Source: a virus. From it: a DNA stretch of 27,840 nt. Under the pieces are notes generated by a model. It was not told the origin of the DNA and searched no databases. It saw only the letters and a program-made list of their open reading frames with translations. Made by a program: the position numbers and the translations under genes. The stretch's first letter is position 1, and every line of letters begins with the position of its first letter. Positions 1 through 17,180 of the stretch are shown here, piece by piece. The DNA is taken from positions 1-27,840 of IMG/VR virus record IMGVR_UViG_3300007344_000180. The stretch is one strand, 5' to 3'.

Positions 1-517
1 AAACTTGTGCTGTTTCATGTTTTGTATTTAAGATTTCTTCCTTTCGTTTCTCCATCATGTCTATCTGACGATCGATGAATCTGATGCGCATCTCCTTGCT
101 CTTGATCCACCCCTCGACATTCATCTTGATGCCTATATCCTTCATCAATGGCCAAACATGATTGAAACATTTGACCATGTCGCTTCTCCTTGTGTCGTTA
201 CCCGAAATGATGGCTACAACGTCTCTCATGTGATGAGATAGTGTGGCTCTGACAATCCCGAAGTAATGCGTAAGGATGTATCGCTTCTCTATGTCCGTGT
301 ACTTGTGTACTCGATACCAAAAGAAACCACACGTCAGCTTGATTACTAGTGCCTCAGGCAGCGATGCCTTACCTGTGTCATGACGCTCTCGAACATCGAA
401 CTCGTCAATCTGCAAGTACTCAGCCACTAGTGTTTGAGCTTCCGCTACAACCTCGTCAATCTCAGCGATGGTCTCCTCTGAGATCTCCTTCATCCAATAT
501 GGTTTGTATTCACCCAT
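1..517 (-). CDS. DnaA domain IV-like DNA-binding protein (3' end missing)
   Basis: The frame is open from the ATG at 517 to the window edge (172 codons, no stop), so the gene is incomplete at its C-terminus. Residues about 28-105 recall the helix-turn-helix domain IV of DnaA: a helix with VAEYLQI, a basic stretch RERHDTGKASLPEA, then HYFGIVRATLSHHMRDV, comparable to the DnaA signature helix around FGGRDHTTVLHA. No AAA+ ATPase motif is visible, so it would be a stand-alone DNA-binding domain that could bind a phage origin or act as a regulator. The start overlaps the upstream stop by 8 bp (ATGGGTGA). The coding call is firm; the DnaA resemblance is judged by eye and is tentative. Confidence 0.65.
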   Translation of the reverse strand, partial: MGEYKPYWMKEISEETIAEIDEVVAEAQTLVAEYLQIDEFDVRERHDTGKASLPEALVIKLTCGFFWYRVHKYTDIEKRYILTHYFGIVRATLSHHMRDVVAIISGNDTRRSDMVKCFNHVWPLMKDIGIKMNVEGWIKSKEMRIRFIDRQIDMMEKRKEEILNTKHETAQV

Positions 518-1040
518 TGTTAAACAGAATCTTAGAGGTTTGAGTTACCACCTCGTTGTTGACGTCAGGGATCTCTTTGTTGAGAGCCGTGGTGGACTCA
601 AGAAACTTGCCGCGAAAGTCAGCCACACCTTGATTGTACCCCCATCGATGCGCTAGCACAACCATGTCGGAGGATTCATCCCTTAAGGATTTCACGCGCT
701 GATCCATGAGTTTCTTGTGGGTCGACAATGGGATGACACTCTCGTTTGTTTTGAACGTCTTGACTGCATCCTTGATTCTGTCAGCAATGGTTCGCTTCTT
801 GAATCCATCGACGTACTCAGAGAGGTGCTTCCGTCCCTCGTCAGTGTTTAGGAGCTTGATAGTCCCCTTGCGGACTTCGCTTCTCACGTGGACGATGGCT
901 CGATATGAGCGACCTAGCTCGTTGCACAACTCAACGACATCAGGATCGTTAGGAGACAACTTCTTTTTGTTGCGCGTGGAGCGCATAACTTTCTTGACCT
1001 CTTGTACTTTCCATGAGGTCGCGCCTTTGGTTCTAGGCAT
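510..1040 (-). CDS. Hypothetical basic protein, possible SANT/Myb-like N-terminus
   Basis: 176 aa, strongly basic at the N-terminus (KVQEVKKVMRSTRNKKK), followed by a segment LSPNDPDVVELCNELGRSYR whose spacing recalls a SANT/Myb or trihelix DNA-binding fold. The rest is charged and probably helical. It starts after an AT-rich 5' leader (AATTTATTTAATC before ATG) rather than the AC-rich leader used further up the operon. Its stop overlaps the next gene by 8 bp, so the two are probably translationally coupled. A DNA-binding role is inference only. Confidence 0.6.
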   Translation of the reverse strand: MPRTKGATSWKVQEVKKVMRSTRNKKKLSPNDPDVVELCNELGRSYRAIVHVRSEVRKGTIKLLNTDEGRKHLSEYVDGFKKRTIADRIKDAVKTFKTNESVIPLSTHKKLMDQRVKSLRDESSDMVVLAHRWGYNQGVADFRGKFLESTTALNKEIPDVNNEVVTQTSKILFNNG

Positions 1041-1051
1041 GATTAAATAAA

Positions 1052-1255
1052 TTAAGAGTTAAACACGTTCCCCTTTGGGACTAGTCCGTAGTTATCGCAC
1101 AAAGCATACACGTCTGACATCCGCTTTGCCAAATCTTTGAGCGCATGCGAGTTCGCTCTGAACGGCTCTTCTGTGTGCGCCTTGTAGTGGTATATGAATG
1201 CTTGGATGCAGGTGAGTGCGTCGAGGCATTTCATTTCAGATTTTGTTTTATCCAT
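1052..1255 (-). CDS. Hypothetical early protein, 67 aa
   Basis: A small, probably helical protein with a Cys- and His-containing N-terminal half (MKCLDALTCIQAFIYHYKAH). The start overlaps the upstream stop by 8 bp (ATGGATAA), the same arrangement as at 510-517. No family recognised. Confidence 0.6.
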   Translation of the reverse strand: MDKTKSEMKCLDALTCIQAFIYHYKAHTEEPFRANSHALKDLAKRMSDVYALCDNYGLVPKGNVFNS

Positions 1256-1643
1256 TTTGATCGATTTCCTTTTCTATTTCTTTCATGAGAGCAGCAACTT
1301 GTTCTCGAAGTTGAATACCTGCATAACAGCGTCCTTCACAAATTCCCCTCAAGATTCCTAGCATTTGAGGAAACTTTGACAGGTATGTCGCAGTTCTCCT
1401 CCCCTCGACAGGGTCACCATACACCTGCATGATGTTACCGAACTTGTCCTTGCTCTTGACGTAGAATCTCGACGATACGTTTTCGCTCCGTCCGTTACAT
1501 GTTCTGTACCTTGTTTTCTTTTCAACAACAACCCATGTATCAGGGAACATGCGCTCCTTGTCGTCTCTAATCTTTTGCTTGAGTTGTTGAATCTCTGATT
1601 CGAGAGCTGTAATTCTTTTTAGGTGGGATTCTATCCTGTTCAT
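1248..1643 (-). CDS. Hypothetical protein with N-terminal coiled coil
   Basis: 131 aa. Residues about 1-32 form a heptad-like helix (MNRIESHLKRITALESEIQQ...), followed by a basic, probably beta-rich segment with aromatic residues (WVVVEKKTRYRTCNG, SRFYVKSKDKFG), then a short helical tail. The ATG overlaps the upstream TGA as ATGA (1640-1643). It may be a small oligomeric early protein; no family recognised. Confidence 0.65.
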   Translation of the reverse strand: MNRIESHLKRITALESEIQQLKQKIRDDKERMFPDTWVVVEKKTRYRTCNGRSENVSSRFYVKSKDKFGNIMQVYGDPVEGRRTATYLSKFPQMLGILRGICEGRCYAGIQLREQVAALMKEIEKEIDQNG

Positions 1644-1801
1644 TGTTGTTCTTTAATTAGTAGTCGTTGCTTTGCTTCGTAGTCCCTGAGCATACACTCA
1701 AGTAAGGTCTCGTTTATCCAACACGGGTTTGATTCACACTTCTCAACCATCACGTCGATCCGCTTTTCAAGCCGCTTGATGTTGTAATCTAGCCCGCTCA
1801 T
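1640..1801 (-). CDS. Small charged protein, 53 aa
   Basis: The protein begins MSGLDYNIKRLEKRIDVMVE and ends LLIKEQQ. It is mainly helical, with a central CESNPCW. It fills exactly the gap between its neighbours and has ATGA overlaps at both ends (1798-1801 and 1640-1643), which strongly supports that it is translated despite its size. No function recognised. Confidence 0.6.
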   Translation of the reverse strand: MSGLDYNIKRLEKRIDVMVEKCESNPCWINETLLECMLRDYEAKQRLLIKEQQ

Positions 1802-2061
1802 TGCTTCGCCTGTGCCTTGAGTTCCCGAATCTTATCTCGGAGCTGAATCTCCAAGCTAGTCAGTCGCTCATTGTCTTCACGTAGCTTAGCGTTCTCCGCT
1901 TCGAGGGCTTGCTCACGCCCTGTCTGTTCAGCGTACTGCTTCTTAGCTAACTCTTGGCGGAACTCCATCGACTCGATGGTTTGTTTGGCAGAGGATATGG
2001 CGTTCTCTGCATAGCGGATCGCCGCTTCGAGTTCGTTCTTTGATTCTTGTACTGAGTTCAT
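1798..2061 (-). CDS. Coiled-coil early protein, 87 aa
   Basis: Almost the whole length is predicted helix with heptad periodicity (for example EQALEAENAKLREDNERLTS), so it should form a dimeric or trimeric coiled coil. ATGA overlaps link it to both neighbours. Coiled coils of this kind give no clue to function. Confidence 0.65.
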   Translation of the reverse strand: MNSVQESKNELEAAIRYAENAISSAKQTIESMEFRQELAKKQYAEQTGREQALEAENAKLREDNERLTSLEIQLRDKIRELKAQAKQ

Positions 2062-2249
2062 TTTTCGGTGTGGTTTATAAGGGTTAATTGAATTTCTGAT
2101 TCGCAGTTGTTATGCAAAGGGTCGAGGTATACGGCATCCACATAGAAGTCGTAGATGTCCTCGTAAGCCGTGGTGTCATGCACCATGATGACAACAATGT
2201 CGTCATCTTTGAAGTCAGACAGGCTATCAATCAGTTGCTTCTTCGTCAT
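2058..2249 (-). CDS. Small phage protein with MTKKQLIDSLSDFKDDDIVV opening
   Basis: 63 aa. The N-terminal pattern (TKKQLIDSL.DFKDD..VV) resembles a small protein type common in phages and mobile DNA, which has a short helix and then beta strands; its biochemical role is unknown. ATGA overlaps are present at both ends. Acidic overall. Confidence 0.6.
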   Translation of the reverse strand: MTKKQLIDSLSDFKDDDIVVIMVHDTTAYEDIYDFYVDAVYLDPLHNNCESEIQLTLINHTEK

Positions 2250-2428
2250 TGTTCTGTTGTGTAGTAGTTAATCATGTCGATGTTCGCTTGGTCAGGATTG
2301 GCTTCGTACCACTCTGCCATGTGATGCACAAGCGACTCGATGATGTCTGCGATGTCCATGTCATTGACTTGGTCGTAGCAGAACTGCTTGATGTCTTGGC
2401 GTTCCTTGTTGTTAATTTCTCGTGTCAT
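2246..2428 (-). CDS. Acidic helical early protein, 60 aa
   Basis: From the ATG at 2428 the protein begins MTREINNKERQDIKQFCYDQ and is rich in Asp/Glu. An in-frame ATG at 2455 would add nine residues but deepens the overlap with the upstream gene from 17 to 44 bp, so the shorter form is preferred. Its fold pattern (helices, then DIADIIESLVHHMAEWYE) resembles that of the upstream 76-aa protein, so the two may be distant relatives. Stop and next start overlap as ATGA. Confidence 0.55.
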   Translation of the reverse strand: MTREINNKERQDIKQFCYDQVNDMDIADIIESLVHHMAEWYEANPDQANIDMINYYTTEQ

Positions 2429-2642
2429 TGTCTGTAAATTTTGGGGATTGTTCAATGATGTATTGAGCTACAAGCTCTTCAATGTCATCGACCACGTTGT
2501 CCACGTCGTTGTGTGTGAGTTCGTACTCTTCTTGCATCAGCTTGGTGAGCCGCATGTATCCGCTGTCTGCACCTGCTCCTTCGCGGTGGTTGAAGCAGTC
2601 GCTGACGTAGCTTCGGATGTCTGATTCTGTTTCGTTAGTCAT
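2412..2642 (-). CDS. Acidic helical early protein, 76 aa
   Basis: MTNETESDIRSYVSDCFNHR..., ending YIIEQSPKFTDNDTRN. Helical and acidic, with DVDNVVDDIEELVAQYI near the C-terminus. Translation starts after a good copy of the AC-rich leader (TTAAACCCCAAACACA). Probably heads a translational subcluster of overlapping genes that runs down to 1248. No known function. Confidence 0.6.
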   Translation of the reverse strand: MTNETESDIRSYVSDCFNHREGAGADSGYMRLTKLMQEEYELTHNDVDNVVDDIEELVAQYIIEQSPKFTDNDTRN

Positions 2643-2657
2643 TGTGTTTGGGGTTTA
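2643..2657 (-). promoter_or_regulatory. AC-rich start-site leader (copy 9)
   Basis: Read on the minus strand: TTAAACCCCAAACACA directly before ATG. It lies downstream of an 85-bp non-coding gap, the longest inside the early operon. Confidence 0.5.
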
Positions 2658-2726
2658 AGGGTTTGTGTGTGTATGCAATATGGGGGGCGCGTTTCGTTGT
2701 CGCAAGACATTTAACACTTTTAACAT

Positions 2727-2936
2727 TTAGTTGAATCCATCGGTCAGGAGGATTCCGTTGTACTCCTCCATCGTTACTCGTTTGAACGAGTTGTAGTCGA
2801 TGGTCAGGATAGGTTCACGTTGGTCAGCCCAACGCTCTCTTGCCTGCTTTCGAGCGGATCGAATGTTGGTTGCCCATTCGGAGTTCCATCCACCTTCGTT
2901 CCAACTGAAGATGTAGCAGTGGTTCTTCTTGTTCAT
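2727..2936 (-). CDS. Aromatic-rich early protein, 69 aa
   Basis: MNKKNHCYIFSWNEGGWNSE..., with many Trp and Tyr and a basic helix (SARKQARERWADQ). Compact, probably alpha/beta. The start overlaps the upstream stop as ATGA (2933-2936). Last gene before an 85-bp gap. No family recognised. Confidence 0.6.
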   Translation of the reverse strand: MNKKNHCYIFSWNEGGWNSEWATNIRSARKQARERWADQREPILTIDYNSFKRVTMEEYNGILLTDGFN

Positions 2937-3148
2937 AACTCCATCAGGAATACGATGTTGATACTGCCCTCACCCAATGGGTTTGGGATGATTGATGCTT
3001 GTAGGTATAGCTTCTCGTCTAGTGCTTCGCTTACCCACGACATGGCTTCGGTGTCTAGTGCTCCATTGCTTCTTGGCACTGAGAACGTTTTCCATGCTAT
3101 CACGAGTTCATCGAGAGAGCAATCGAGGAAGGGGTTGGGGATGTTCAT
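2933..3148 (-). CDS. Hypothetical early protein, 71 aa
   Basis: MNIPNPFLDCSLDELVIAWK..., ending INIVFLMEL. Mixed helix and strand, no recognisable domain. ATGA overlap at both ends (3145-3148 and 2933-2936). Confidence 0.6.
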   Translation of the reverse strand: MNIPNPFLDCSLDELVIAWKTFSVPRSNGALDTEAMSWVSEALDEKLYLQASIIPNPLGEGSINIVFLMEL

Positions 3149-3312
3149 GCTTGTGAGTTGTTGGGGTTGAACATTGCGTTGAGTTCGTCCATTGACAGGT
3201 TCAGTGCTTCATCGGATTGATTTGCTGCCTTCTGCTTCAGGATGGTGGTCTTGGCTCGTGCCATCGCATCTTGGATGGACTCACCTTGACGGAGGATGAT
3301 TGATACTGACAT
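3145..3312 (-). CDS. Small helical early protein, 55 aa
   Basis: Begins MSVSIILRQGESIQDAMARA and ends MDELNAMFNPNNSQA. It has an AC-rich leader (TCTAAACCCAATACACA) before its ATG and an ATGA overlap with the next gene, which together support translation. The amphipathic helix suggests a protein-binding peptide; function unknown. Confidence 0.55.
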   Translation of the reverse strand: MSVSIILRQGESIQDAMARAKTTILKQKAANQSDEALNLSMDELNAMFNPNNSQA

Positions 3313-3327
3313 TGTGTATTGGGTTTA
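3313..3327 (-). promoter_or_regulatory. AC-rich start-site leader (copy 8)
   Basis: Minus strand TCTAAACCCAATACACA before ATG; a slightly diverged copy with AAT inserted after the C run. Confidence 0.45.
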
Positions 3328-3334
3328 GAGGGTT

Positions 3335-3571
3335 TTACTTGTTGTCGTTGTAGTGCTTGTCTACGAGTCGCTTGATGCTATCGGAGTTGAAGTCATCTCC
3401 ATAACTCAGGATGCTTATCGCCATTGACCTTACAAGGTCTGGTTTGTGGTAGGCAAGCGAGTTAATCTTGTACAGGTAGTTGGTTGGGTCTCCGCACCTG
3501 TCGTTCACCACTAGTGTGGCTCGTCCCACAGGTTGCTTGGTGATGTTGTCTACGATTTCTTTGTTGGTCAT
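3335..3571 (-). CDS. Hypothetical early protein, 78 aa
   Basis: MTNKEIVDNITKQPVGRATL... with a central CGDPTNYLYKINSLAYHKPD. The N-terminal helix followed by a possible beta hairpin gives no recognised family. ATGA overlap with the upstream 51-aa gene (3568-3571). Confidence 0.6.
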   Translation of the reverse strand: MTNKEIVDNITKQPVGRATLVVNDRCGDPTNYLYKINSLAYHKPDLVRSMAISILSYGDDFNSDSIKRLVDKHYNDNK

Positions 3572-3723
3572 GATTCCTTGAGTTTACTGATTGAGATGTT
3601 GATGAGAGAGATGTTGTAGTGGTGCTTCCACTTATTCAACGCAGACAGATTCTGCTTATTGCGTTTGTGGTGATATTTTTCTTGTGCCTGTGCTAGTGCT
3701 TGGCGTACTTGCTCGTGGGTCAT
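3568..3723 (-). CDS. Basic early protein, 51 aa
   Basis: From the ATG at 3723: MTHEQVRQALAQAQEKYHHK..., rich in Lys and His, helical at the start and Ile/Ser-rich at the end (ISLINISISKLKES). The start is chosen because it gives the ATGA junction (3720-3723) seen throughout this operon; a longer frame would run over the upstream gene. Confidence 0.5.
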   Translation of the reverse strand: MTHEQVRQALAQAQEKYHHKRNKQNLSALNKWKHHYNISLINISISKLKES

Positions 3724-3845
3724 TGTTGTGTTTTGTGTTCGATGTAGTCCAACGAGAAGGTGATGAGATGTCCGATGCCCGTGAGGATGATGCCCCAAGC
3801 AAGGGACATTTGGGCGTACATGAGGAAGGTTGTGTAGGTAGTCAT
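3720..3845 (-). CDS. Single-pass membrane miniprotein, 41 aa
   Basis: From the ATG at 3845: MTTYTTFLMYAQMSLAWGII..., with one continuous hydrophobic helix at about residues 7-32 followed by DYIEHKTQQ. It is preceded by a near-perfect AC-rich leader, which fixes the start. An early membrane miniprotein could alter the host envelope or block a host membrane process; this is inference. No similar family recognised. Confidence 0.55.
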   Translation of the reverse strand: MTTYTTFLMYAQMSLAWGIILTGIGHLITFSLDYIEHKTQQ

Positions 3846-3861
3846 TGTGTGTGGGGTTTTT
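3846..3861 (-). promoter_or_regulatory. AC-rich start-site leader (copy 7)
   Basis: Minus strand AAAAACCCCACACACA before ATG; one of the closest matches to the consensus. Confidence 0.5.
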
Positions 3862-3867
3862 AGGAGT

Positions 3868-4164
3868 TTACTTGTTGTCGGTTCTGAACAGGTTGAACAT
3901 TGCTTGTCGTGTCGCATTGAGTTCCTCTTGGGTTGGCTCGTCGTCGGCATCGTCCTCGTCCTCCCATTCGGTGTAGTAGTAGAGTTCGTCCTCGTAGCAT
4001 CGTCTTAGGTATTCTGTCACCACTTCGGATTCACCGATGGATTCTATAGCCATGAGCTGAATCAACAGAGTCTCGTCGGTTGCCGCGTATGCATCTCCAT
4101 CGCAGATGCAGTATCCTGAGTTCATTCCCTGTCCTGTAAGGGAGTCATATCGTGTGTGCTTCAT
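3868..4164 (-). CDS. Highly acidic early protein, 98 aa
   Basis: From the ATG at 4164: MKHTRYDSLTGQGMNSGYCI..., becoming extremely acidic toward the C-terminus (ELYYYTEWEDEDDADDEPTQ). The long acidic run and aromatic residues are the sort of composition seen in phage DNA-mimic proteins that block restriction or nucleoid proteins, but no specific family is recognised. Two upstream in-frame ATGs are rejected because the 4164 start is preceded by the second type of leader, which also precedes the gene at 5189. Confidence 0.55.
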   Translation of the reverse strand: MKHTRYDSLTGQGMNSGYCICDGDAYAATDETLLIQLMAIESIGESEVVTEYLRRCYEDELYYYTEWEDEDDADDEPTQEELNATRQAMFNLFRTDNK

Positions 4165-4198
4165 GTCTCTATAACGTTTGTGGTTTGGGATTATTGTG
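4165..4198 (-). promoter_or_regulatory. Second-type leader with 14-bp core
   Basis: This 34-bp spacer shares the exact 14-bp core TCTATAACGTTTGT (plus strand, 4168-4181) with the spacer at 5190-5224, ending 3-4 bases from the ATG in both cases. It also holds TTTGGGATTATTGTG versus TTTGGGTTATTGTG in the other copy. Role unknown: translation leader, promoter or operator. Confidence 0.4.
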
Positions 4199-4468
4199 TC
4201 AGCAGATGACAAAATCTTCGGGAGTTGTGTCGCAGTTCAGGACGAACAGGTCAGTGCCGTTTCCGACAACCGATGCGAAGGGGATGAGTTCCTCGATGTC
4301 CTCAATCATGTCCTCGATGTCGTAGGCATCACCGAACTCGCACATTAGTGCGTTAGAGATGTTCCTCTCGCTTCCGAGGATGATGGCGAAGTTCACGTTG
4401 AGCAGGTCATCAGTTAGTCCTGCGATGTCTACACAGGTATGGATGCGCATTAGCTTGTCGATATTCAT
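4199..4468 (-). CDS. Acidic early protein, 89 aa
   Basis: From the ATG at 4468: MNIDKLMRIHTCVDIAGLTD..., with a strongly acidic centre (DAYDIEDMIEDIEELIPFAS) and C-terminal DLFVLNCDTTPEDFVIC. The start follows an exact AC-rich leader; the longer upstream frame is ignored for that reason. No known family; low pI makes it a second candidate for a nucleic-acid mimic or inhibitor. Confidence 0.55.
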   Translation of the reverse strand: MNIDKLMRIHTCVDIAGLTDDLLNVNFAIILGSERNISNALMCEFGDAYDIEDMIEDIEELIPFASVVGNGTDLFVLNCDTTPEDFVIC

Positions 4469-4482
4469 TGTGTGTGGGTTTG
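4469..4482 (-). promoter_or_regulatory. AC-rich start-site leader (copy 6)
   Basis: Minus strand ACAAACCCACACACA before ATG. Confidence 0.5.
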
Positions 4483-4524
4483 TTGCGTGATGTTTGTGAG
4501 CAGTATGAATCGATCGATTTGGTG

Positions 4525-4683
4525 TCAACACATGTACAGGATGTTCGATGTGTCGTAGCCGAGTTCTTCCAAGTGAGTTTCCATGTCCTCGATTTGGTCA
4601 AGGTTTTCGATTGTGATTACGTCTACCTCTCGTGTTGTGTAGTCGAGGATGGCTACCTGATTGTCTCCAAGTTGAATTTTCAT
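4525..4683 (-). CDS. Small acidic early protein, 52 aa
   Basis: MKIQLGDNQVAILDYTTREV..., ending TSNILYMC. Probably a beta hairpin followed by an acidic helix (ENLDQIEDMETHLEELG). The AC-rich leader sets the start. It shares the opening MKIQ with the next gene upstream, hinting that the two N-termini may be related. Confidence 0.5.
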   Translation of the reverse strand: MKIQLGDNQVAILDYTTREVDVITIENLDQIEDMETHLEELGYDTSNILYMC

Positions 4684-4698
4684 TGTGTATAGGTTTAT
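4684..4698 (-). promoter_or_regulatory. AC-rich start-site leader (copy 5)
   Basis: Minus strand CATAAACCTATACACA before ATG; a diverged copy. The upstream spacer begins with a second TAAACCC formed by the stop codon of the preceding gene (4711-4709). Confidence 0.45.
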
Positions 4699-4708
4699 GT
4701 GGTTGGGT

Positions 4709-4873
4709 TTACTTTGTGTTCTTTGATTTGAAGCGGAGGAAGTTTGGGTGCTCCATCGCTTCCTCGATGGTCGTGCATCGTGGTGTCTTAATTTCTGTCC
4801 CGTCTGTCATGTGCAGGCAGTTGAGTTCTGGTGCGTACCTGTGTCGCTCCAATCCATGTACTTGAATCTTCAT
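4709..4873 (-). CDS. Small early protein, 54 aa
   Basis: MKIQVHGLERHRYAPELNCL..., ending FLRFKSKNTK. Basic C-terminus and TTIEEAMEHP helix. It starts right after a consensus leader and its TAA stop forms the first bases of another TAAACCC. No family recognised. Confidence 0.5.
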   Translation of the reverse strand: MKIQVHGLERHRYAPELNCLHMTDGTEIKTPRCTTIEEAMEHPNFLRFKSKNTK

Positions 4874-4888
4874 TGTGTGTGGGTTTAT
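4874..4888 (-). promoter_or_regulatory. AC-rich start-site leader (copy 4)
   Basis: Minus strand CATAAACCCACACACA before ATG. The TAA within it (4887-4885) is the stop codon of the upstream 44-aa gene, so the leader is merged with that stop. Confidence 0.5.
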
Positions 4889-5019
4889 GTGTATTCTTCA
4901 ACGATGTAGATTGCGGCAGTGATGGCTCTGTCGTCGGCATCGCCCATCTCTCCTTGCAGAACTTCGTTCTGAAAAGTTTGCAACAACTCGTGCAGTGTGT
5001 TCAATTCTTCTGGTGTCAT
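4885..5019 (-). CDS. Acidic miniprotein, 44 aa
   Basis: MTPEELNTLHELLQTFQNEV..., ending IYIVEEYT; two helices with an acidic GEMGDADD turn. The ATG at 5019 follows an AC-rich leader, so longer readings of this frame are rejected. Function unknown. Confidence 0.5.
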   Translation of the reverse strand: MTPEELNTLHELLQTFQNEVLQGEMGDADDRAITAAIYIVEEYT

Positions 5020-5034
5020 CGTGTGGGGGTTTAT
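5020..5034 (-). promoter_or_regulatory. AC-rich start-site leader (copy 3)
   Basis: Minus strand CATAAACCCCCACACG before ATG; the TAA (5033-5031) doubles as the stop codon of the upstream gene. Confidence 0.5.
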
Positions 5035-5189
5035 GTGGTTGGGTGAATGTAGTGTTCGTCGTAGGTGAACTGCTTGGTGCGTTCGATGTAGTCGATGAAG
5101 TTCCGCATGTGGTGTTGTCCGCTGAAGAACTTGGTAACCTTCCATCCTCGTGGTCGGTCGTTGGTGTGGAATACTAATGTTGCTTTCAT
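5031..5189 (-). CDS. Small basic early protein, 52 aa
   Basis: MKATLVFHTNDRPRGWKVTK..., ending YDEHYIHPTT. Aromatic and His-rich (FFSGQHHMRNFIDYI), probably alpha/beta. It starts behind the second-type leader. No family recognised. Confidence 0.5.
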   Translation of the reverse strand: MKATLVFHTNDRPRGWKVTKFFSGQHHMRNFIDYIERTKQFTYDEHYIHPTT

Positions 5190-5224
5190 GTGTCTATAAC
5201 GTTTGTCGTGTTTGGGTTATTGTG
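5190..5224 (-). promoter_or_regulatory. Second-type leader with 14-bp core
   Basis: Partner of the spacer at 4165-4198: the core TCTATAACGTTTGT (plus strand) lies at 5193-5206 and is identical, and the flanks also align. Confidence 0.4.
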
Positions 5225-5231
5225 TGGGGAG

Positions 5232-5414
5232 TTAGAGTTCAATGGTGCGGGCAATTTTCAGGAGAGCGTTCTTTGCGGATTCGATGCGCAGACGATGCAT
5301 CTTCTCCTCCTCAAAGGTTCTGCTGCTGTTTGTGGCGCGGGCTTCCTGTCGTGAAGCTAGGTTTGCTGCAATTGCGTCTTGGTAAGCCTTGGTAGCTGCT
5401 TTGAACTTGTCCAT
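5232..5414 (-). CDS. Basic helical early protein, 60 aa
   Basis: From the ATG at 5414: MDKFKAATKAYQDAIAANLA..., ending ALLKIARTIEL. Almost entirely helical and rich in Ala, Lys and Arg. The start sits immediately behind an AC-rich leader. Could bind nucleic acid or oligomerise; no family recognised. Confidence 0.55.
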   Translation of the reverse strand: MDKFKAATKAYQDAIAANLASRQEARATNSSRTFEEEKMHRLRIESAKNALLKIARTIEL

Positions 5415-5429
5415 GTGTGTGGGGTTTAT
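5415..5429 (-). promoter_or_regulatory. AC-rich start-site leader (copy 2)
   Basis: Minus strand CATAAACCCCACACAC before ATG; close to consensus. A second AAACCC lies just upstream. Confidence 0.5.
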
Positions 5430-5473
5430 GGGTTTGTGGGGAGGACAGCGTGTCCATCCTCCCCGTGATTTCA

Positions 5474-5677
5474 TTAGGCGTTGCGCTTCCGCTTTGTCAA
5501 CTCTGCGTCACACGCTCTGCGAACCATGACTGCCGTGGCGTTGTCAACTTCGTCCTGCTTGGTTGCGTCTCCAACTGCAATCTTGTAGTCGGTGCGATGC
5601 ATGACGTTAGTGGCGTTCTCCAACGTTGCGATGACCGTGGCCGTGTCTGCTTGCTTGATGATGTCTACGAAGTACAT
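5474..5677 (-). CDS. First gene of the early operon, 67 aa
   Basis: From the ATG at 5677: MYFVDIIKQADTATVIATLE..., with a basic C-terminus (ACDAELTKRKRNA). Helical, no recognised domain. As the promoter-proximal gene of the minus-strand operon it is probably the earliest and among the most expressed. The AC-rich leader sets the start and excludes a 14-residue longer reading. Confidence 0.55.
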   Translation of the reverse strand: MYFVDIIKQADTATVIATLENATNVMHRTDYKIAVGDATKQDEVDNATAVMVRRACDAELTKRKRNA

Positions 5678-5692
5678 GATGTGTGGGGTTTG
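5678..5692 (-). promoter_or_regulatory. AC-rich start-site leader (copy 1)
   Basis: Minus strand CAAACCCCACACATC before ATG, in the leader of the first early gene. Confidence 0.5.
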
Positions 5693-5716
5693 AATGGTTT
5701 GATGAATGATTCGGTA

Positions 5717-5748
5717 CAAACATCGTGAAGGGAACAGATACTTGTCAA
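5717..5748 (-). promoter_or_regulatory. Candidate early-operon promoter
   Basis: On the minus strand TTGAC (5748-5744) is followed 21 nt later by GATGTTTG (5724-5717), one mismatch from the Bacteroidota -7 box TAnnTTTG with acceptable -33/-7 spacing. A start near 5711 would leave about 34 nt of leader before the first early gene. Confidence 0.35.
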
Positions 5749-5757
5749 GTTTTCAAA

Positions 5758-5774
5758 TGTTAACGAATGTGAAT
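5758..5774. promoter_or_regulatory. Operator-like 17-bp site, copy 1
   Basis: TGTTAACGAATGTGAAT. A copy with one difference lies at 9796-9812. Both stand upstream of a minus-strand transcription unit, both contain GTTAAC, and both are flanked on the same side by a TTTTC(C)AAAT block. Likely a binding site for a phage or host factor. Confidence 0.5.
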
Positions 5775-6259
5775 CCCGCAGTATGACTGAGATACAGAGC
5801 GAAAAAAAGTTTGAGCATGGGGGTCAAGACGTGGTGGTTGGATGGGGGGTGCGACAGGTTCATGTGGTGGGGAGGATGTCGGTCAGCGCGTATACCCCTT
5901 CCGCTTAGGTCTGAGGATGGGAGGATTGGGGAGGGTTTGTTATTGTGGTCTGTATGTGTGCATAAAGCCACGTCTGTTGAATGCTTTGTACAAGTAACCT
6001 AGGTCAACACCCTGTGCGTCAACACGTTACACAAAACGCTAAAAGTTGTGCGCAAATCGCAACATAATGCAAGGGAGGGGGGACACAGATTCCGTTTCGG
6101 GTCGCGCGCGTGCTCGTCTATGTAGCACGATAATCCCATACTCAAACATTTCTCACCACTTTTTCCAGATCCGCTGTTCGAGTTTGACTTTAATGCGGAT
6201 ATTCTAAACTTATGATACACAATTAGTTAGGCTGTGTTGATTAAACTTTCAATTCAACC

Positions 6260-6290
6260 TTGACTTTTGAGATTTTTGTTTATACCTTCG
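6260..6290 (+). promoter_or_regulatory. Candidate late promoter
   Basis: TTG at 6260-6262, 20 nt, then TACCTTCG at 6283-6290, one base from TAnnTTTG. This is the best -33/-7 pair in the window and lies in the control region before the first plus-strand gene, leaving a leader of about 90 nt. Confidence 0.45.
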
Positions 6291-6332
6291 CAATCATCAA
6301 GCAGATCAGAGGGGTCTAAACTTCTCAGATGG

Positions 6333-6352
6333 TCTTTGTGTGAACACAGAGA
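6333..6352 (+). other. Hairpin in late 5' leader
   Basis: TCTTTGTG (6333-6340), loop TGAA, CACAGAGA (6345-6352): 8-bp stem with one G-T pair. No T-run follows, so it is not an intrinsic terminator. It could stabilise the leader or control translation of the 41-aa gene. Confidence 0.35.
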
Positions 6353-6383
6353 ATCTGTTAGATGTTTATGTCAGAGGATTGCT

Positions 6384-6509
6384 ATGTCTAAAACCAAACA
6401 CAATAAGAGGGTGTCTGACAAGATCAGGCTGTTAGTGCGAGAGGGGAAACCCTTGAAGCAGGCCATAGCCATAGCACTGTCCATGCACGGTAAGACTAAG
6501 AAGAAGTAA
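6384..6509 (+). CDS. Small basic phage protein with KQAIAIALS motif
   Basis: 41 aa from the ATG at 6384: MSKTKHNKRVSDKIRLLVRE..., then GKPLKQAIAIALSMHGKTKK. The pattern (K)IRxLVREGKPxKQAIAIAxSM is familiar from small late proteins of marine and Bacteroidota phages and looks like a helix-turn-helix-sized nucleic-acid-binding peptide. Function unknown. Earlier codons in this frame lack a start. First gene of the late block. Confidence 0.6.
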   Translation: MSKTKHNKRVSDKIRLLVREGKPLKQAIAIALSMHGKTKKK

Positions 6510-6511
6510 GC

Positions 6512-6519
6512 TATCTTTG
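6512..6519 (+). promoter_or_regulatory. TATCTTTG -7 box
   Basis: Exact match to TAnnTTTG, in the 15-bp gap between two genes; the next ATG (6525) is 6 nt after its last base. No clear -33 element. Confidence 0.55.
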
Positions 6520-6524
6520 CGTGT

Positions 6525-7253
6525 ATGAGAGCACTCAAGGGGAACGTTACTAGGACTGGTTATCGCAGGGATAGCAAGGACAGGTTCAATGACTTCAATG
6601 TCATCCCATCAAACAAGATCTCCATGAAGGGGGTTGATCACGATGTGATCGGTGTGAGTGATAGGGGGGATGTGAAGCACATGAAACCTGGTGGGGAGTA
6701 CAGGTTCAGTGGGAAGACTGTCACTGAGTTCCCTGTGTATCAAGGTAGCGGTCAGTTCAACATCCCGAAAGAGGCGTACAACGCACAGATGGACACAACA
6801 GCGTTCATTAGGGCACTTGCTGGGGTGGAGTCTGACCTGAACTACAGGGCTCAGAACCCAACCTCTTCGGCTGTTGGTGGGCATCAGTTCCTGTGGAATC
6901 TGCTCAAGAAGGACCCAAACCTATCTGGGGTAACTAAGGAGCAGTACATGTTCGATGAGGATCTTCAGAACGAGACGATGAGAAGAGCTCTCACTGAGTC
7001 TGTCGCTGGTGGGAATCCGTACATGGAGGATATCGCTGACATTAGAAAAGAGTATTCACCACAGATTCCTGGGTTTGACGATATGTTCTCAGACCTTGAC
7101 TTACTCCTTATGCGTCACCTTAAGGGGAGACAAGGCTCTAGAGAGTATCTTGGTCACACGATCAGAGATAAGAGGGATGAAAACCTCAAGGGTAAGAACA
7201 TGACCTTCCCTGACTATCAAGCCAAGTTCTATAGATACTACTACAACGACTAA
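6525..7253 (+). CDS. Virion lytic-transglycosylase-like protein
   Basis: 242 aa. Residues about 22-72 form a conserved-looking N-terminal region (NDFNVIPSNKISMKGV, then MKPGGEYRFSGKTVTEFP) of a type I associate with Bacteroidota phage structural proteins. Residues about 92-190 resemble the lysozyme-like fold of lytic transglycosylases: a candidate catalytic Glu102 in GVESDLNYRA, then NPTSSAVGGHQF (111-122), equivalent to the NPxSSAxGxxQF motif of that fold. Expected role: cleaving peptidoglycan glycan strands during DNA injection as part of the virion. It has its own TATCTTTG box 6 nt from the ATG. Confidence 0.7.
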   Translation: MRALKGNVTRTGYRRDSKDRFNDFNVIPSNKISMKGVDHDVIGVSDRGDVKHMKPGGEYRFSGKTVTEFPVYQGSGQFNIPKEAYNAQMDTTAFIRALAGVESDLNYRAQNPTSSAVGGHQFLWNLLKKDPNLSGVTKEQYMFDEDLQNETMRRALTESVAGGNPYMEDIADIRKEYSPQIPGFDDMFSDLDLLLMRHLKGRQGSREYLGHTIRDKRDENLKGKNMTFPDYQAKFYRYYYND

Positions 7254-7258
7254 CAGCC

Positions 7259-8155
7259 ATGGGGATATTTACTAAGAAGGATACAAACACAATCTCTGGT
7301 GAGGATAAGTTCAAGGGGTGGGGGAACACCAAGGAGAAGGTATTTGAGTCAGAGGCACAGAAGGGGGCTGTAACGTCTGCTGCAGGTGGTGACCTAAAGG
7401 GGGAGGACTTCAGGCAGCTCAAGAGAGATGTACACAAGCAGAAGAGACTCAACCGTAGAGCCCTTAGAAAGGCCGAGAGAAAGGGGATTGACCCGTCTCA
7501 GGTTGAGATGAGGGGTGGTGAGTACAAGGAACTTACCCGTAGAGAAGAGGACATCGAGCAGTACTTTAAGGATGTAAGGAAGGAGAGATCGGAGAACACT
7601 GCTGAGATAGTGGGTGTCTTGGCAGGGGCAGCCCTTACTGGGGGTGCTATCCTTGGCGCTGGGGGTGGAGGAGCTGCTACAGCTGGAGCTACTACGGCTG
7701 TTGCCCCGACAACAGTTGGGACTGGCATCACAGCAACTGGAGGATCAGGTCTTGGTGGCGTTGCCGCCACTCAAGCAGCCCTGACCCCTGCTGCCTTGAC
7801 AGGAACCACAGCGGCCACCACTGGAGCCACTGGAGCCACGACAGCTGCAGCCACAACTGGCACGACTGCTGCAACCACAGGGGTTAAGGCTGGCCTTAAG
7901 GAGTTTGGCAAGAAGGCGGCTATGGGGGCCATAGAGAACAATATGTCTGGTGGGGCTCAAGGGGGTTTTCAGCCAGACCCCAGAACAGCACAGCTGGAGC
8001 AACAGCTTGCAATGATGCAGAATCAAATGAACTTCATGCAGCAACCCACCTTCCAGGTCCCAGCGTATCAGACCCCACAACCATACACCATGCCACCACC
8101 GATGGTGCAACCCTCTTACACGGCGGCTGATGTGTACGATCCATTCCTCCAGTAA
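7259..8155 (+). CDS. Ala/Gly/Thr-rich virion protein, probable DNA-ejection protein
   Basis: 298 aa. Residues about 1-115 are charged and helical (RDVHKQKRLNRRALRKAERK). Residues about 116-225 are extremely rich in Ala, Gly and Thr, including a hydrophobic segment EIVGVLAGAALTGGAILGAG and a run of TTAATTGATGATTAAATTG type. The C-terminal 70 residues are rich in Gln, Met and Pro (LEQQLAMMQNQMNFMQQ). Charged head, membrane-compatible Gly/Ala middle and Q/M/P tail are typical of internal or ejection proteins of short-tailed phages; the neighbouring transglycosylase fits. Function is inferred from composition and context. Confidence 0.6.
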   Translation: MGIFTKKDTNTISGEDKFKGWGNTKEKVFESEAQKGAVTSAAGGDLKGEDFRQLKRDVHKQKRLNRRALRKAERKGIDPSQVEMRGGEYKELTRREEDIEQYFKDVRKERSENTAEIVGVLAGAALTGGAILGAGGGGAATAGATTAVAPTTVGTGITATGGSGLGGVAATQAALTPAALTGTTAATTGATGATTAAATTGTTAATTGVKAGLKEFGKKAAMGAIENNMSGGAQGGFQPDPRTAQLEQQLAMMQNQMNFMQQPTFQVPAYQTPQPYTMPPPMVQPSYTAADVYDPFLQ

Positions 8156-9179: not shown

Positions 9180-9707
9180 TCAGACATCAGAGCATCGATA
9201 CACAGGTTGACTGTTCGAGGCATCTAGTTCATACCCAGGGGCTGTAATATGAACCCCCATCTCCTCTACAACAACTTGGTCGTTCGCGATGCATTGCTGA
9301 ACCCAGTCCTCGTCGAACAGAAGGATGAATGGTTCGTTCTCACCCTGAGGTCCAGCCGTGGAAACAACATACACCCCAGCCATTCCAGGGTGAAAGCTCA
9401 TGACGCTGTCAGGTTGTTCCATGAAGATGTGAACGTCACGCTTCATTTCGTAGTCGTAGATCTCACCACTGGCTAGCACACTGTCAAAGTCAGCCGTGCT
9501 TAAGCCTACCACGCGGTCCACGTTAATAACCTGAATCGGCATGTCTGATCGCACAGATTGGATGAACGGGACAGACACTCGATTTCGAAGACGCTCCATT
9601 GAGCAATCGAACGTGAAGGCCAGTACGAAGATAGCTGCGAAGAAAGCGAACACAGAGATTGCAGTCCAACGCAAGACCCGAAGGGTGAGGTTAATGAAGT
9701 TGTTCAT
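9180..9707 (-). CDS. Membrane-anchored protein, possible superinfection-exclusion gene
   Basis: 175 aa. Residues about 10-32 form one hydrophobic helix (LRWTAISVFAFFAAIFVLAF) preceded by a short basic N-terminus; the remaining 140 residues are soluble, with two Cys (C34 and C172), and should lie outside the cytoplasm. It is the only minus gene in this part, lies between a terminator and its own upstream region, and that region shares the 17-bp site with the early operon. An isolated, separately controlled membrane protein inside a late block fits an envelope-modifying or superinfection-exclusion role. No family recognised; function is inference. Confidence 0.65.
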   Translation of the reverse strand: MNNFINLTLRVLRWTAISVFAFFAAIFVLAFTFDCSMERLRNRVSVPFIQSVRSDMPIQVINVDRVVGLSTADFDSVLASGEIYDYEMKRDVHIFMEQPDSVMSFHPGMAGVYVVSTAGPQGENEPFILLFDEDWVQQCIANDQVVVEEMGVHITAPGYELDASNSQPVYRCSDV

Positions 9708-14896: not shown

Positions 14897-15100
14897 ATGA
14901 CTGAATATCAATGTCTTATGGCTAACTATGTGTGTAAGTGCTGCGAGCACGAAGAAACAAGGGACAAGGCTTCTATCAAGATTATTGACGGGGAGGCTGT
15001 TCATAACGTTAAGTGTCCATGTGGTAAGTACATGGAGTTAAAGAACCCAAAGTCTGGAGCCCCTAGCTTCAGGAGCAATCGGTATGGCCAAGTCTACTGA
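14897..15100 (+). CDS. Zinc-ribbon protein
   Basis: 67 aa. CKCC (13-16) and CPCG (41-44) give two knuckles of a zinc ribbon; the C-terminus is basic and Ser/Gly-rich (NPKSGAPSFRSNRYGQVY). Likely a small nucleic-acid- or protein-binding factor. An alternative start at the internal MANYVCKCC is possible. It begins 3 nt after the tRNA and overlaps the terminase start by 17 bp, suggesting co-expression with packaging. Confidence 0.65.
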   Translation: MTEYQCLMANYVCKCCEHEETRDKASIKIIDGEAVHNVKCPCGKYMELKNPKSGAPSFRSNRYGQVY

Positions 15101-17180
15101 TGAATATATTATCCAGATTTGTCCCAACGGTACAGAGGGAGAAATTGTTAGGATTGGCGATCTTGACATTGCACTTCCCGCTCAGCCCCCCGAAGAAGAA
15201 ATTGTTGGATATGGACGTCCAAACCACTTGCAGTTGTGGGAGAGGATTCCTATGCCAAAGGAGTTGCTTCGGATTAAGAGCATGGATGAGTGGTCCGAGT
15301 CGCCAAGAGAGTTCAGGGAGAAGTTTCGTCCGTATATCGAGGAGGAGTTTCGTCGTCGTCGTGAGGGCTTTTGGTTTTACAACGATGGTAGGCCTACGTA
15401 TATTACGGGCAGGCATTACATGATGCTCCAGTGGACCAAGATGGATGTGGGTTATCCAGACTATCTTGAGTTCCAAAGAGATATTTTCGTACATTTGTCT
15501 GCGTGTGAGGCGGACCCCCGATGTATCGGGCAGCTGTATACTAAATGTAGGCGGAGCGGATACACTAACATCTGCTCTGCTGTGCTTCTGGACGAAGCCA
15601 CACAAGTCAAGGACAAGCTCTTGGGGATACAGTCGAAGACTGGTAAGGACGCCCAGGAGAATATATTCATGAAGAAGGTGGTGTACATGTTCAGACACTA
15701 TCCCTTCTTCTTCAAACCTATTCAGGATGGAACGACCAATCCGCGCATGGAGCTGGCTTTTCGCGAGCCGAGTAAGAGAATCACGAAGAAGAATAAGACT
15801 GCGCAGACGGGCGAGGCTCTTAATACGCTGATCAACTGGAAGAACACCACCAACAACGCATACGACGGTGAGAAGCTTCACCTGTTGTACTTGGATGAGG
15901 CTGGTAAGTGGGAGAAGCCTACGGACATTCGTGACGCTTGGAGAATTCAGCGCACGTGTTTGATTGTGGGTAGAAAGATTGTGGGGAAGGCCTTGGTCGG
16001 CTCCACTGTAAACCCTATGGATAAGGGTGGGAGGGAGTACAAGGACCTTTGGGAGGACTCCAACCCAGAAGAAAGAAACGCAAACGGTAGGACCAGATCT
16101 GGCTTGTACCGCTTATTTATTCCAGCCTATGAATCACTTGAAGGATTTTTTGACCGACACGGTCGACCCATCGTTGACGATCCTGATAGCCCTGTGGACG
16201 GGCTTGATGGGGATAGTATTACTATCGGGGCTAAGACGTACCTTAAGAACGAGAGGGAGAGCCTTAAAGGAGACCCCTCAGAACTCAACGAGGTAACGAG
16301 GCAGTTCCCCTTCAGCACTGACGAAGCCTTCAGGGACAGCATCGACGGTAGTCTGTTCAACATAGGTCAGATCTACGAGCAGATACAGTACAATGACGAA
16401 CTCTTCCCTAACCCTGTCGTCAGGGGTAACTTCGTTTGGAAGAACGGGGAGCAGGACACTGAGGTACTGTTTGACCCAGACCCAAAGGGTAGGTTTAGGG
16501 TTGCTTGGATGCCACCAGCTGAACTAAGAAATAATAAGATTGAGCAGCGAGGCAAGCTCGTTGCACCGAATGCAGAGCTAGGGGTGGGTGGGGTTGACTC
16601 CTACGACCTTGATGCCACCGTCGACGGACGTGGGTCTAAGGGGGCGCTGCACCTCTACAACAAGTTTCACATGGAGTACCCATCGAACATGTTCGTAGTG
16701 GAGTATGCATCTCGTCCACCTCTAGCCAAGATCTTCTATGAGGACGTCCTTAAGGCTGCGTTCTTTTACGGGTACCCTATCTTAATTGAAAACAATAAGT
16801 ACGGTATTGCAAGATACTTTGAATCAAGAGGTTACGATGGTTATCTAATGGATAGGCCAGAGCACTTAACCAGTGGCGGTAGCGCAAAGACCAAGACCAA
16901 GGGTATCCCCTCTAACTCTCAGGATGTGATCCAGTCGCACGCCCATGCCATTGAAGCCTACATACACGATCATGTGGGGATAAATAGAGATACTGGGGAG
17001 CACGGGAAGATGTACTTCAATAGGACTCTTGAGGATTGGATTGGGTACAAGATTGACAACAGAACCAAGTTCGACCTTACGATTAGTTCAGGGTTGGCGC
17101 TGCTTGGTGCTCAGAAAGCAAAACCAAAGAAGCCACCATCTGACTTTTCTGAAAGGGTGTTCTTGCGTAGGTTCAAGTAA
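15084..17180 (+). CDS. terL: Terminase large subunit
   Basis: 698 aa, the ATPase-nuclease that drives DNA into the prohead and cuts it. The ATPase domain has a Walker-A-like TKCRRSGYTN (153-162), atypical in lacking the classic GK[ST], Walker B LHLLYLDEAG with Asp271-Glu272, and the coupling motif GSTVNP (306-311). The RNase-H-like nuclease domain follows, with GGVDSYDLDA (Asp505), then ILIENNKYG (Glu569) and a QSHAHAIEAY helix. Length suits a TerL with an extra N-terminal region. It follows HNH and zinc-ribbon genes and is followed by the portal, the usual packaging order. Confidence 0.92.
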   Translation: MAKSTDEYIIQICPNGTEGEIVRIGDLDIALPAQPPEEEIVGYGRPNHLQLWERIPMPKELLRIKSMDEWSESPREFREKFRPYIEEEFRRRREGFWFYNDGRPTYITGRHYMMLQWTKMDVGYPDYLEFQRDIFVHLSACEADPRCIGQLYTKCRRSGYTNICSAVLLDEATQVKDKLLGIQSKTGKDAQENIFMKKVVYMFRHYPFFFKPIQDGTTNPRMELAFREPSKRITKKNKTAQTGEALNTLINWKNTTNNAYDGEKLHLLYLDEAGKWEKPTDIRDAWRIQRTCLIVGRKIVGKALVGSTVNPMDKGGREYKDLWEDSNPEERNANGRTRSGLYRLFIPAYESLEGFFDRHGRPIVDDPDSPVDGLDGDSITIGAKTYLKNERESLKGDPSELNEVTRQFPFSTDEAFRDSIDGSLFNIGQIYEQIQYNDELFPNPVVRGNFVWKNGEQDTEVLFDPDPKGRFRVAWMPPAELRNNKIEQRGKLVAPNAELGVGGVDSYDLDATVDGRGSKGALHLYNKFHMEYPSNMFVVEYASRPPLAKIFYEDVLKAAFFYGYPILIENNKYGIARYFESRGYDGYLMDRPEHLTSGGSAKTKTKGIPSNSQDVIQSHAHAIEAYIHDHVGINRDTGEHGKMYFNRTLEDWIGYKIDNRTKFDLTISSGLALLGAQKAKPKKPPSDFSERVFLRRFK

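Follow-up and report, generated by a model that had tools for sequence, protein, structure and literature searches.

A repeated A/C leader directly before start codons of a phage gene block, a probable Shine-Dalgarno-independent translation-initiation region

The choice of start codons by Bacteroidota ribosomes without Shine-Dalgarno pairing is an open question, and the signals known are faint. In Flavobacterium johnsoniae, an A at positions -3, -6, -12 and -13 favours initiation (PMC6847099), and the initiation regions of Bacteroidetes are usually enriched in A/T around -12/-13, with a guanine-plus-cytosine (GC) content about 12.6% below that of the genome (PMC3155529, on Prevotella bryantii). 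The RegA protein of phage T4 and the ribosome compete on about 30 mRNAs for unstructured sites that include the AUG and a 5' A tract and in which an upstream UAA may participate (PMC3014915). Here we analyse a 15-base A/C leader repeated directly before start codons in 27,840 bases of a virus record (IMG/VR IMGVR_UViG_3300007344_000180, positions 1 to 27,840), the whole stretch being referred to as the window. No description of a leader of this kind in a phage was found in the titles and abstract openings of the open-licence papers listed in searches. The leader is a real, clade-specific and position-bound element, and from sequence comparison we consider it probable that in this Bacteroidota-type phage it acts as a standardised region for translation initiation, independent of Shine-Dalgarno pairing.

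Similar to the Kozak-like regions of Bacteroidetes (PMC6847099, PMC3155529), the leader has no Shine-Dalgarno sequence, has low predicted structure and A at -3 and -12/-13, and lies directly before the AUG. By contrast, those regions are statistical preferences in A/T-rich sequence, whereas the leader is a near-fixed A/C string with C where U would be expected and with A mostly absent from -6. Like the T4 RegA operators (PMC3014915), it is a site common to many mRNAs that covers their initiation regions and lacks structure, and an upstream UAA is at times included. RegA sites differ in being A+U-rich and variable, compared to the A/C leader with its little U, and no RegA relative (PF01818) was found in seven phage records by a weak search, which shows little as it gave no match in any control genome.

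The leader, hereafter type 1, consists of variants of (T)AAACCCCACACACA-ATG and is G-free, with AAACC at about -14 to -10 and ACACA at -5 to -1. The original prediction that nine minus-strand starts are preceded by such variants was borne out, as the starts at 5677, 5414, 5019, 4873, 4683, 4468, 3845, 3312 and 2642 are all ATG, each with a leader, and belong to nine small, mutually unrelated genes. When both strands of the window were scanned with ACCCCACACACAATG at up to three mismatches, 11 matches were detected compared to a mean of 0.83 (standard deviation 0.88) for shuffled sequence, and none of 100 shuffles reached 11. Nine of these matches are the nine starts, and the remaining two lie at 2507-2521 and 5218-5232. 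The minus-strand leaders are located at 5678..5692 (start 5677, the first gene of the block), 5415..5429 (start 5414; mismatch scan and weight matrix), 5020..5034 (start 5019), 4874..4888 (start 4873), 4684..4698 (start 4683; a similar gene of the related record G011 has AAACCCCACACACC-ATG), 4469..4483 (start 4468; kept by the orthologs in G004 and G002, with the type-2 leader described below at the G007 ortholog), 3846..3860 (start 3845; exact AAACCCCACACACAATG), and 3313..3327 and 2643..2657 (starts 3312 and 2642; weight matrix and comparison with relatives). The TAA of the leader had been thought often to be the stop of the previous gene, which proved to be the case for only two of the nine (5019 and 4873, gap of 11 nucleotides, nt); for six others the upstream stop is 22-84 nt away, and nothing in the block lies upstream of the first gene on the same strand.

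The leaders occupy the promoter-proximal part (2643-5692) of a block of small minus-strand genes at 510..5677, for which the gene layout suggests early expression. The first leader is conserved together with about 100 nt upstream in four records, where it is followed by four different genes; this conserved region (5678..5780, minus strand), which ends in the first leader, is the presumed promoter.

Genes of the block either overlap their upstream neighbour (ATGA and similar; coupled starts) or stand apart (uncoupled starts). Both classes were scored with a position weight matrix built from the nine window leaders only, which was applied to the window by leave-one-out and to other records. Block starts were hand-curated from single-strand calls after the leaders had been seen, and the automatic caller mis-called antisense open reading frames (ORFs) in the block. 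By this approach, a score of at least 7 was reached by 9 of 12 uncoupled starts in the window compared to none of the 11 coupled starts (Fisher test, 3.4e-4), in agreement with the earlier claim that genes with overlapping starts have no leader. The block is A/C-rich throughout, yet random block positions reach this score in only 1.1% of cases. The related phage records G004, G002, G007 and G011 gave 17 of 31 uncoupled starts at this score compared to none of 40 coupled starts (2.6e-8). The six best matrix sites in G004 and the four best in G002 directly precede an ATG, with fewer doing so in G007 and G011. The original prediction would have been refuted by a motif equally common away from starts, which was not the outcome across these four records: 13 of the 18 sites scoring at least 11.5 have an ATG within -1 to +2 nt of the site end, and some of the others fall in the same intergenic gaps or inside the type-2 leader described below. 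Sites of at least 9 did not adjoin an ATG in G008 (0 of 5), G009 (0 of 7) or MW202828 (0 of 5). Exact matches to the leader in other virus contigs were set aside, those in L008 and L010 lying within apparent coding regions and that in L012 preceding a called gene with an 11-nt overlap with its neighbour.

The order of bases within the leader is conserved beyond its composition. For information and identity tests, type-1 leaders were chosen rather than collected exhaustively (eight from other phages for information, 28 in all for identity). The nine window leaders hold 19.5 bits compared to 12.6 +/- 0.57 for within-leader permutations, and the eight other-phage leaders 18.2 bits compared to 13.0 +/- 0.65, with none of 5000 permutations reaching the observed value in either set. 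Among these 17 leaders, A is present at -13 in all 17, at -12 in 16 and at -3 in 15. The predicted mean cost of opening positions -15 to +15 was 3.0 kcal/mol for the nine leaders and 6.5 kcal/mol when random block 15-mers were swapped in, compared to 4.7 for the 11 coupled starts and 7.9 for 25 late starts. Scrambling the letters of the leaders left predicted opening almost unchanged (3.2 vs 3.0 kcal/mol intact), and the openness thus stems from the A/C composition. Positions -20 to -1 contain no G in seven of the nine leaders and a single G in two, with GG in none. A Shine-Dalgarno site was rejected on the finding that pairing with the 16S 3' tail of Capnocytophaga, whose 16S may not be that of the host, was weaker than the scrambled mean for eight of the nine leaders; pairing elsewhere in the same 16S was likewise rejected, as seven of nine leaders were below the scrambled mean over its whole length.

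Comparison of orthologs revealed that their start type (type-1 leader, type-2 leader or coupling) differs where their neighbours differ. For family MKAT, the window start is of type 2, the G004 start is coupled, and the starts in G002 and G007 are of type 1. Family MNID has type 1 in three phages and type 2 in G007, where it is swapped in order with the MKH/MKY gene; the latter family has type 2 in three phages and is coupled in G007. In family MTNETESD, the window gene is preceded by the leader and its G007 ortholog is coupled. G004, G002 and G007 each have an uncoupled MNSVQ gene with an A/C leader, whereas the MNSVQ gene of the window is coupled and separated from the leader by three other genes. 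Since ortholog start types vary with context and the first leader precedes four different genes, the start signal is a property of the position and not of the gene.

Over 16 nt, identity between the leaders of unrelated genes is 71.4% for 91 pairs from the same phage and 70.3% for 270 pairs from different phages, compared to 35.4% for random block 16-mers and 51.5% for letter-permuted leaders. Orthologous leaders are 75.7% identical (17 pairs) and the third codon positions of the same orthologs 76.8%. A leader is therefore nearly as similar to that of another gene as to that of its own ortholog and changes at about the rate of third positions. As likeness within and between phages is about the same, the leaders are not privately homogenised within each phage of the clade, and recent copying is disfavoured; the pattern looks like selection that keeps a consensus. 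Gene duplication was rejected as a source of the leaders, since block genes of four records gave no similar within-phage pair at an E-value of 1e-4.

Sister phages have another repeated leader. When 94 records were searched de novo for 9-mers that recur at fixed distances before ORFs, such strings were detected, and one Markov copy per record served as control (no repeated string in 93 copies and one in a single copy). TCAAACTTCAA was found 38 times in 11 of 93 records (0.9 expected), in 27 cases with an ATG 10-12 nt further on, giving a G-poor TCAAACTTCAA-N10-12-ATG as the sister leader. Thirty-one AAACTTCAA leaders precede ORFs of at least 30 codons in 15 gene families, some from the near-duplicate records L095 and L097. 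Three ortholog families have the A/C leader in the window clade and the AAACTTCAA leader in sisters (the G004 gene at 19465 with L021, that at 19153 with G008 and G009, and MNSVQ with L095 and L097), and one family that is coupled in the window clade carries the sister leader in L021, L095, L100 and G008. This second leader is apparent in motif counts. By contrast, testing automatically called uncoupled starts of sister records for information at fixed positions gave p=0.82 for L095, 0.42 for G009 and a weak signal for L100 (p=0.022), partly because the distance of this leader to the ATG varies. The pattern with the three bases before the ATG fixed gave two matches, which is no measure of frequency as known cases vary there. 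The leftward block of the cultured Flavobacterium phage elemo (NC_055852, host BAL314) has A/T-rich leaders, with no A/C leader among the 37 starts listed. The leader set seems to change as a set between phage lineages. It is conceivable, although doubtful, that each lineage has a private early-gene leader (AAACCCCACACACA-ATG vs TCAAACTTCAA-N10-12-ATG) with a cognate reader that defines an early translational regulon by sequence rather than by Shine-Dalgarno pairing; the reader would be a phage RNA-binding protein or a lineage-specific bS1 or ribosome of the host.

For an initiation region, we propose that the block genes would be carried on one polycistronic RNA. Where a gene overlaps the one upstream (ATGA), its translation probably depends on coupling and no signal of its own would be needed, while a non-overlapping gene would rely on its own 15-nt G-free leader. 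Being G-free and nearly U-free, the leader is proposed to stay single-stranded and cannot serve as a Shine-Dalgarno site. The A at -13, -12 and -3 would favour initiation as in Flavobacterium johnsoniae, the leader would fix the choice of AUG, and the host 30S subunit may be recruited by it, perhaps via bS1. Any effect of the leader on translation, like the single RNA and the early timing, is inferred. The block amounts to a natural experiment on what these ribosomes or a cofactor read: one near-fixed leader recurs before genes unrelated to each other, the coupled neighbours act as internal controls, and a second lineage uses a different leader. The leader could also supply a compact expression leader for Bacteroidota genetics.

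Several observations weigh against this reading. The leader is restricted to one gene block, as none of 89 uncoupled starts called automatically outside it reached a score of 7 (27 in G006, a longer record apparently near-identical to the window, 17 in G004, 14 in G002 and 31 in G007). Within the block, the uncoupled window starts at 5189, 4164 and 1040 have no type-1 leader, the first two being of type 2 and the last of neither type, and 14 of the 31 uncoupled starts of the relatives score below 7. These 14 comprise four type-2 leaders, three copies of the block-ending gene with its AT-rich leader, two with shifted spacing, four divergent starts of G007 and one G002 start scored as a miss because its position was off by 1 nt. 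The coupled-start control is confounded because the sequence upstream of coupled starts is coding. A is present at -6 in only 4 of the 17 leaders, although A-6 is also positive in Flavobacterium johnsoniae (PMC6847099), and the leader, about half C, does not have the lowered GC of Bacteroidetes initiation regions. Over the whole Capnocytophaga 16S, pairing of the leaders at 3312 and 2642 exceeds the scrambled mean, at a different site for each, and the sister leaders do not hold A-12/A-13 in register. The order of bases is conserved though openness needs only composition, which implies some reader of that order or a benefit outside these calculations.

The main and serious rival is a translational operator similar to that of RegA, by which a phage protein would bind the common leader on many early mRNAs, block the ribosome and shut the genes off jointly, with coupled genes following their upstream partner. 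Confinement to the block and an order conserved more than openness requires are both consistent with this proposal, and the different repeated leader of the sisters would fit an operator set that changes with its protein. By contrast, the A at -13, -12 and -3 matches ribosome preferences with no further protein, and no candidate binder was detected, with 10 block proteins giving no match to a PHROG of known function. We regard an operator as unlikely, while noting that sequence cannot separate a translational operator from a ribosome site. The original prediction of a translation-initiation element is partly supported, by the fixed register with the ATG, the absence from coupled genes, the lack of G, the predicted openness, the A at -3/-12/-13 and, in eight of nine leaders, 16S 3'-tail pairing no stronger than in scrambled copies; its frequent overlap of leader TAA and previous stop was reduced to two of nine. 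A DNA element (promoter or operator) before each gene is highly improbable. A DNA-type repeat does occur in the leftward block of the relative MW202828, as 12 copies of the palindrome GTGTCGTTAACGACAC, but the leader is non-palindromic, has one orientation, abuts the ATG, often lies in gaps of 11-25 nt after a stop, and as a -10-like box would start the RNA within the gene. The G006 minus strand shows no enrichment of TANNTTTG (8 vs 11.5 expected), and the promoter pattern TTG-N17-21-TAnnTTTG has no occurrence on the minus strand of the window. TAnnTTTG is the promoter motif of Bacteroidetes; boxes of this type are also found near the ATG in the same phage family (TATATTTGC about 11-13 nt before it, rightward genes) but differ from the leader in sequence, in the genes they precede and in being a DNA-level signal.

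Cleavage of the ACACACA run by an endonuclease, to give leaderless or trimmed mRNAs, appears slightly less credible still. MazF cuts at ACA, and ACA abuts the AUG in most leaders. However, ACA occurs 200 times on the block coding strand vs 144 expected from base composition and is thus not special to leaders, so that an ACA cutter would cut all along the block. T4 RegB does demonstrate that phages cut early initiation regions (PMC3014915). Equally remote is the proposal that the leaders arose by recent copying or help to shuffle genes by recombination, with no role in translation. The promoter/stem-loop (PeSL) cassettes of T4 (as cited in PMC4503421) are similarly repeated intergenic elements between small variable genes, and as in T4 one element here has a conserved hairpin; at this hairpin and at the first-gene junction, homology between phages reaches the leader and then ends in different genes. 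By contrast to PeSL cassettes, no promoter was seen at each copy, and the hairpin accompanies one leader in each of three phages. A recombination hotspot was not supported, as gene order is broken equally often at both kinds of boundary, adjacency being conserved at 30 of 93 uncoupled and 36 of 105 coupled boundaries (p=0.88), and recent copying is opposed by the near-equal likeness of unrelated leaders within and between phages (0.714 vs 0.703) reported above.

The window is apparently near-identical to the 51.6-kb record G006, with which it shares a 100% identical large terminase and all nine leaders at one constant offset. The large terminase (15084-17180) matches 113 phage records, each at less than 60% identity, which by name are Flavobacterium (68), uncultured (21), Cellulophaga (15), Bacteriophage (3), Tenacibaculum (2), Azobacteroides (2), Maribacter (1) and Caudoviricetes (1). 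As these relatives include phages named for Flavobacterium, Cellulophaga, Tenacibaculum, Maribacter and Azobacteroides, the host is probably a member of the Bacteroidota; at the DNA level, no similarity of the window to named phages was found. The coding strand of the block (1100-5700) is skewed to A/C (A 0.344, C 0.264, G 0.211, T 0.180), compared to A 0.285 and C 0.224 for the late strand. S21 and S1 domains were detected in none of seven phage records, which may be incomplete (controls matched), and the phage RNA polymerase family PF00940 gave no match in phage records or in the control genomes.

Cellular genomes were also searched for the leader. TAAACCCMACACACAATG had three matches in the genome collection, one preceding a Capnocytophaga gene start and two inside ORFs. 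The three genomes concerned gave 39 matches at up to three mismatches compared to 14 for the reversed pattern, and three of 20 near matches taken from them have an in-frame stop on one side and an ORF of 204-501 codons on the other. It is likely that a few ordinary cellular Bacteroidota genes have such a leader, at likely gene starts. When up to two mismatches were allowed, matches were present in 127 of 395 Bacteroidota genomes, with no genome having more than three. Thus, no sampled genome uses the leader as a frequent repeat, and the true host may lie outside the sample.

The type-2 leader is a second conserved leader, CACAATAACCCCAAACCACAAACGTTATA...ATG, on the minus strand at starts 5189 (5190..5225, ACACAATAACCC...AAACGTTATAGACAC) and 4164 (4165..4198, CACAATAATCCCAAACCACAAACGTTATAGAGAC). 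Its string also matches L132 and L133, which were set aside as no related genes or leaders were seen there. The conserved hairpin sequence GGGGAGGATGGACACGCTGTCCTCCCC (5438..5464, minus strand) lies upstream of the leader at 5414, and the same 27 nt are found in G004 and G007 before other genes. It contains GGAGGA and is not followed by a T run; the stretch folded began inside the hairpin and covered only part of it. The block-ending gene (start 1040) and its orthologs have a conserved AT-rich upstream region, GTTTAACTCTTAATTTATTT, in the window, G004 and G002, with a similar one in G007.

Repeats of other kinds were observed in the phages compared. The palindromes of MW202828 (L102) are perfect, 16 bp long and located at about 640-7650, several of them 15-25 nt before an ATG; they resemble repeated operators of a DNA-binding protein and were not present in the other records compared. 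TATATTTGC or TTATATTTG is found about 11-14 nt before an ATG in G009, G008, L085, L084, L075, L063 and L045, nearly always on the terminase strand, with TATCTTTG/TATATTTG as the counterpart at a similar distance (about 11-14 nt) before the window starts at 6525, 8186 and 22081. Such boxes are of the Bacteroidetes promoter type and would yield nearly leaderless late mRNAs. The leftward block of elemo may have a weak leader set of its own, with four copies of AAATAAGAT adjoining an ATG and two starts of the form AAAATTTATACA(C/T)T-ATG. At 9707 in the window, a lone minus-strand gene amid rightward genes has the leader CTTAAAACAAACAACC-ATG, which is kept in G004 and nearly the same in G002.

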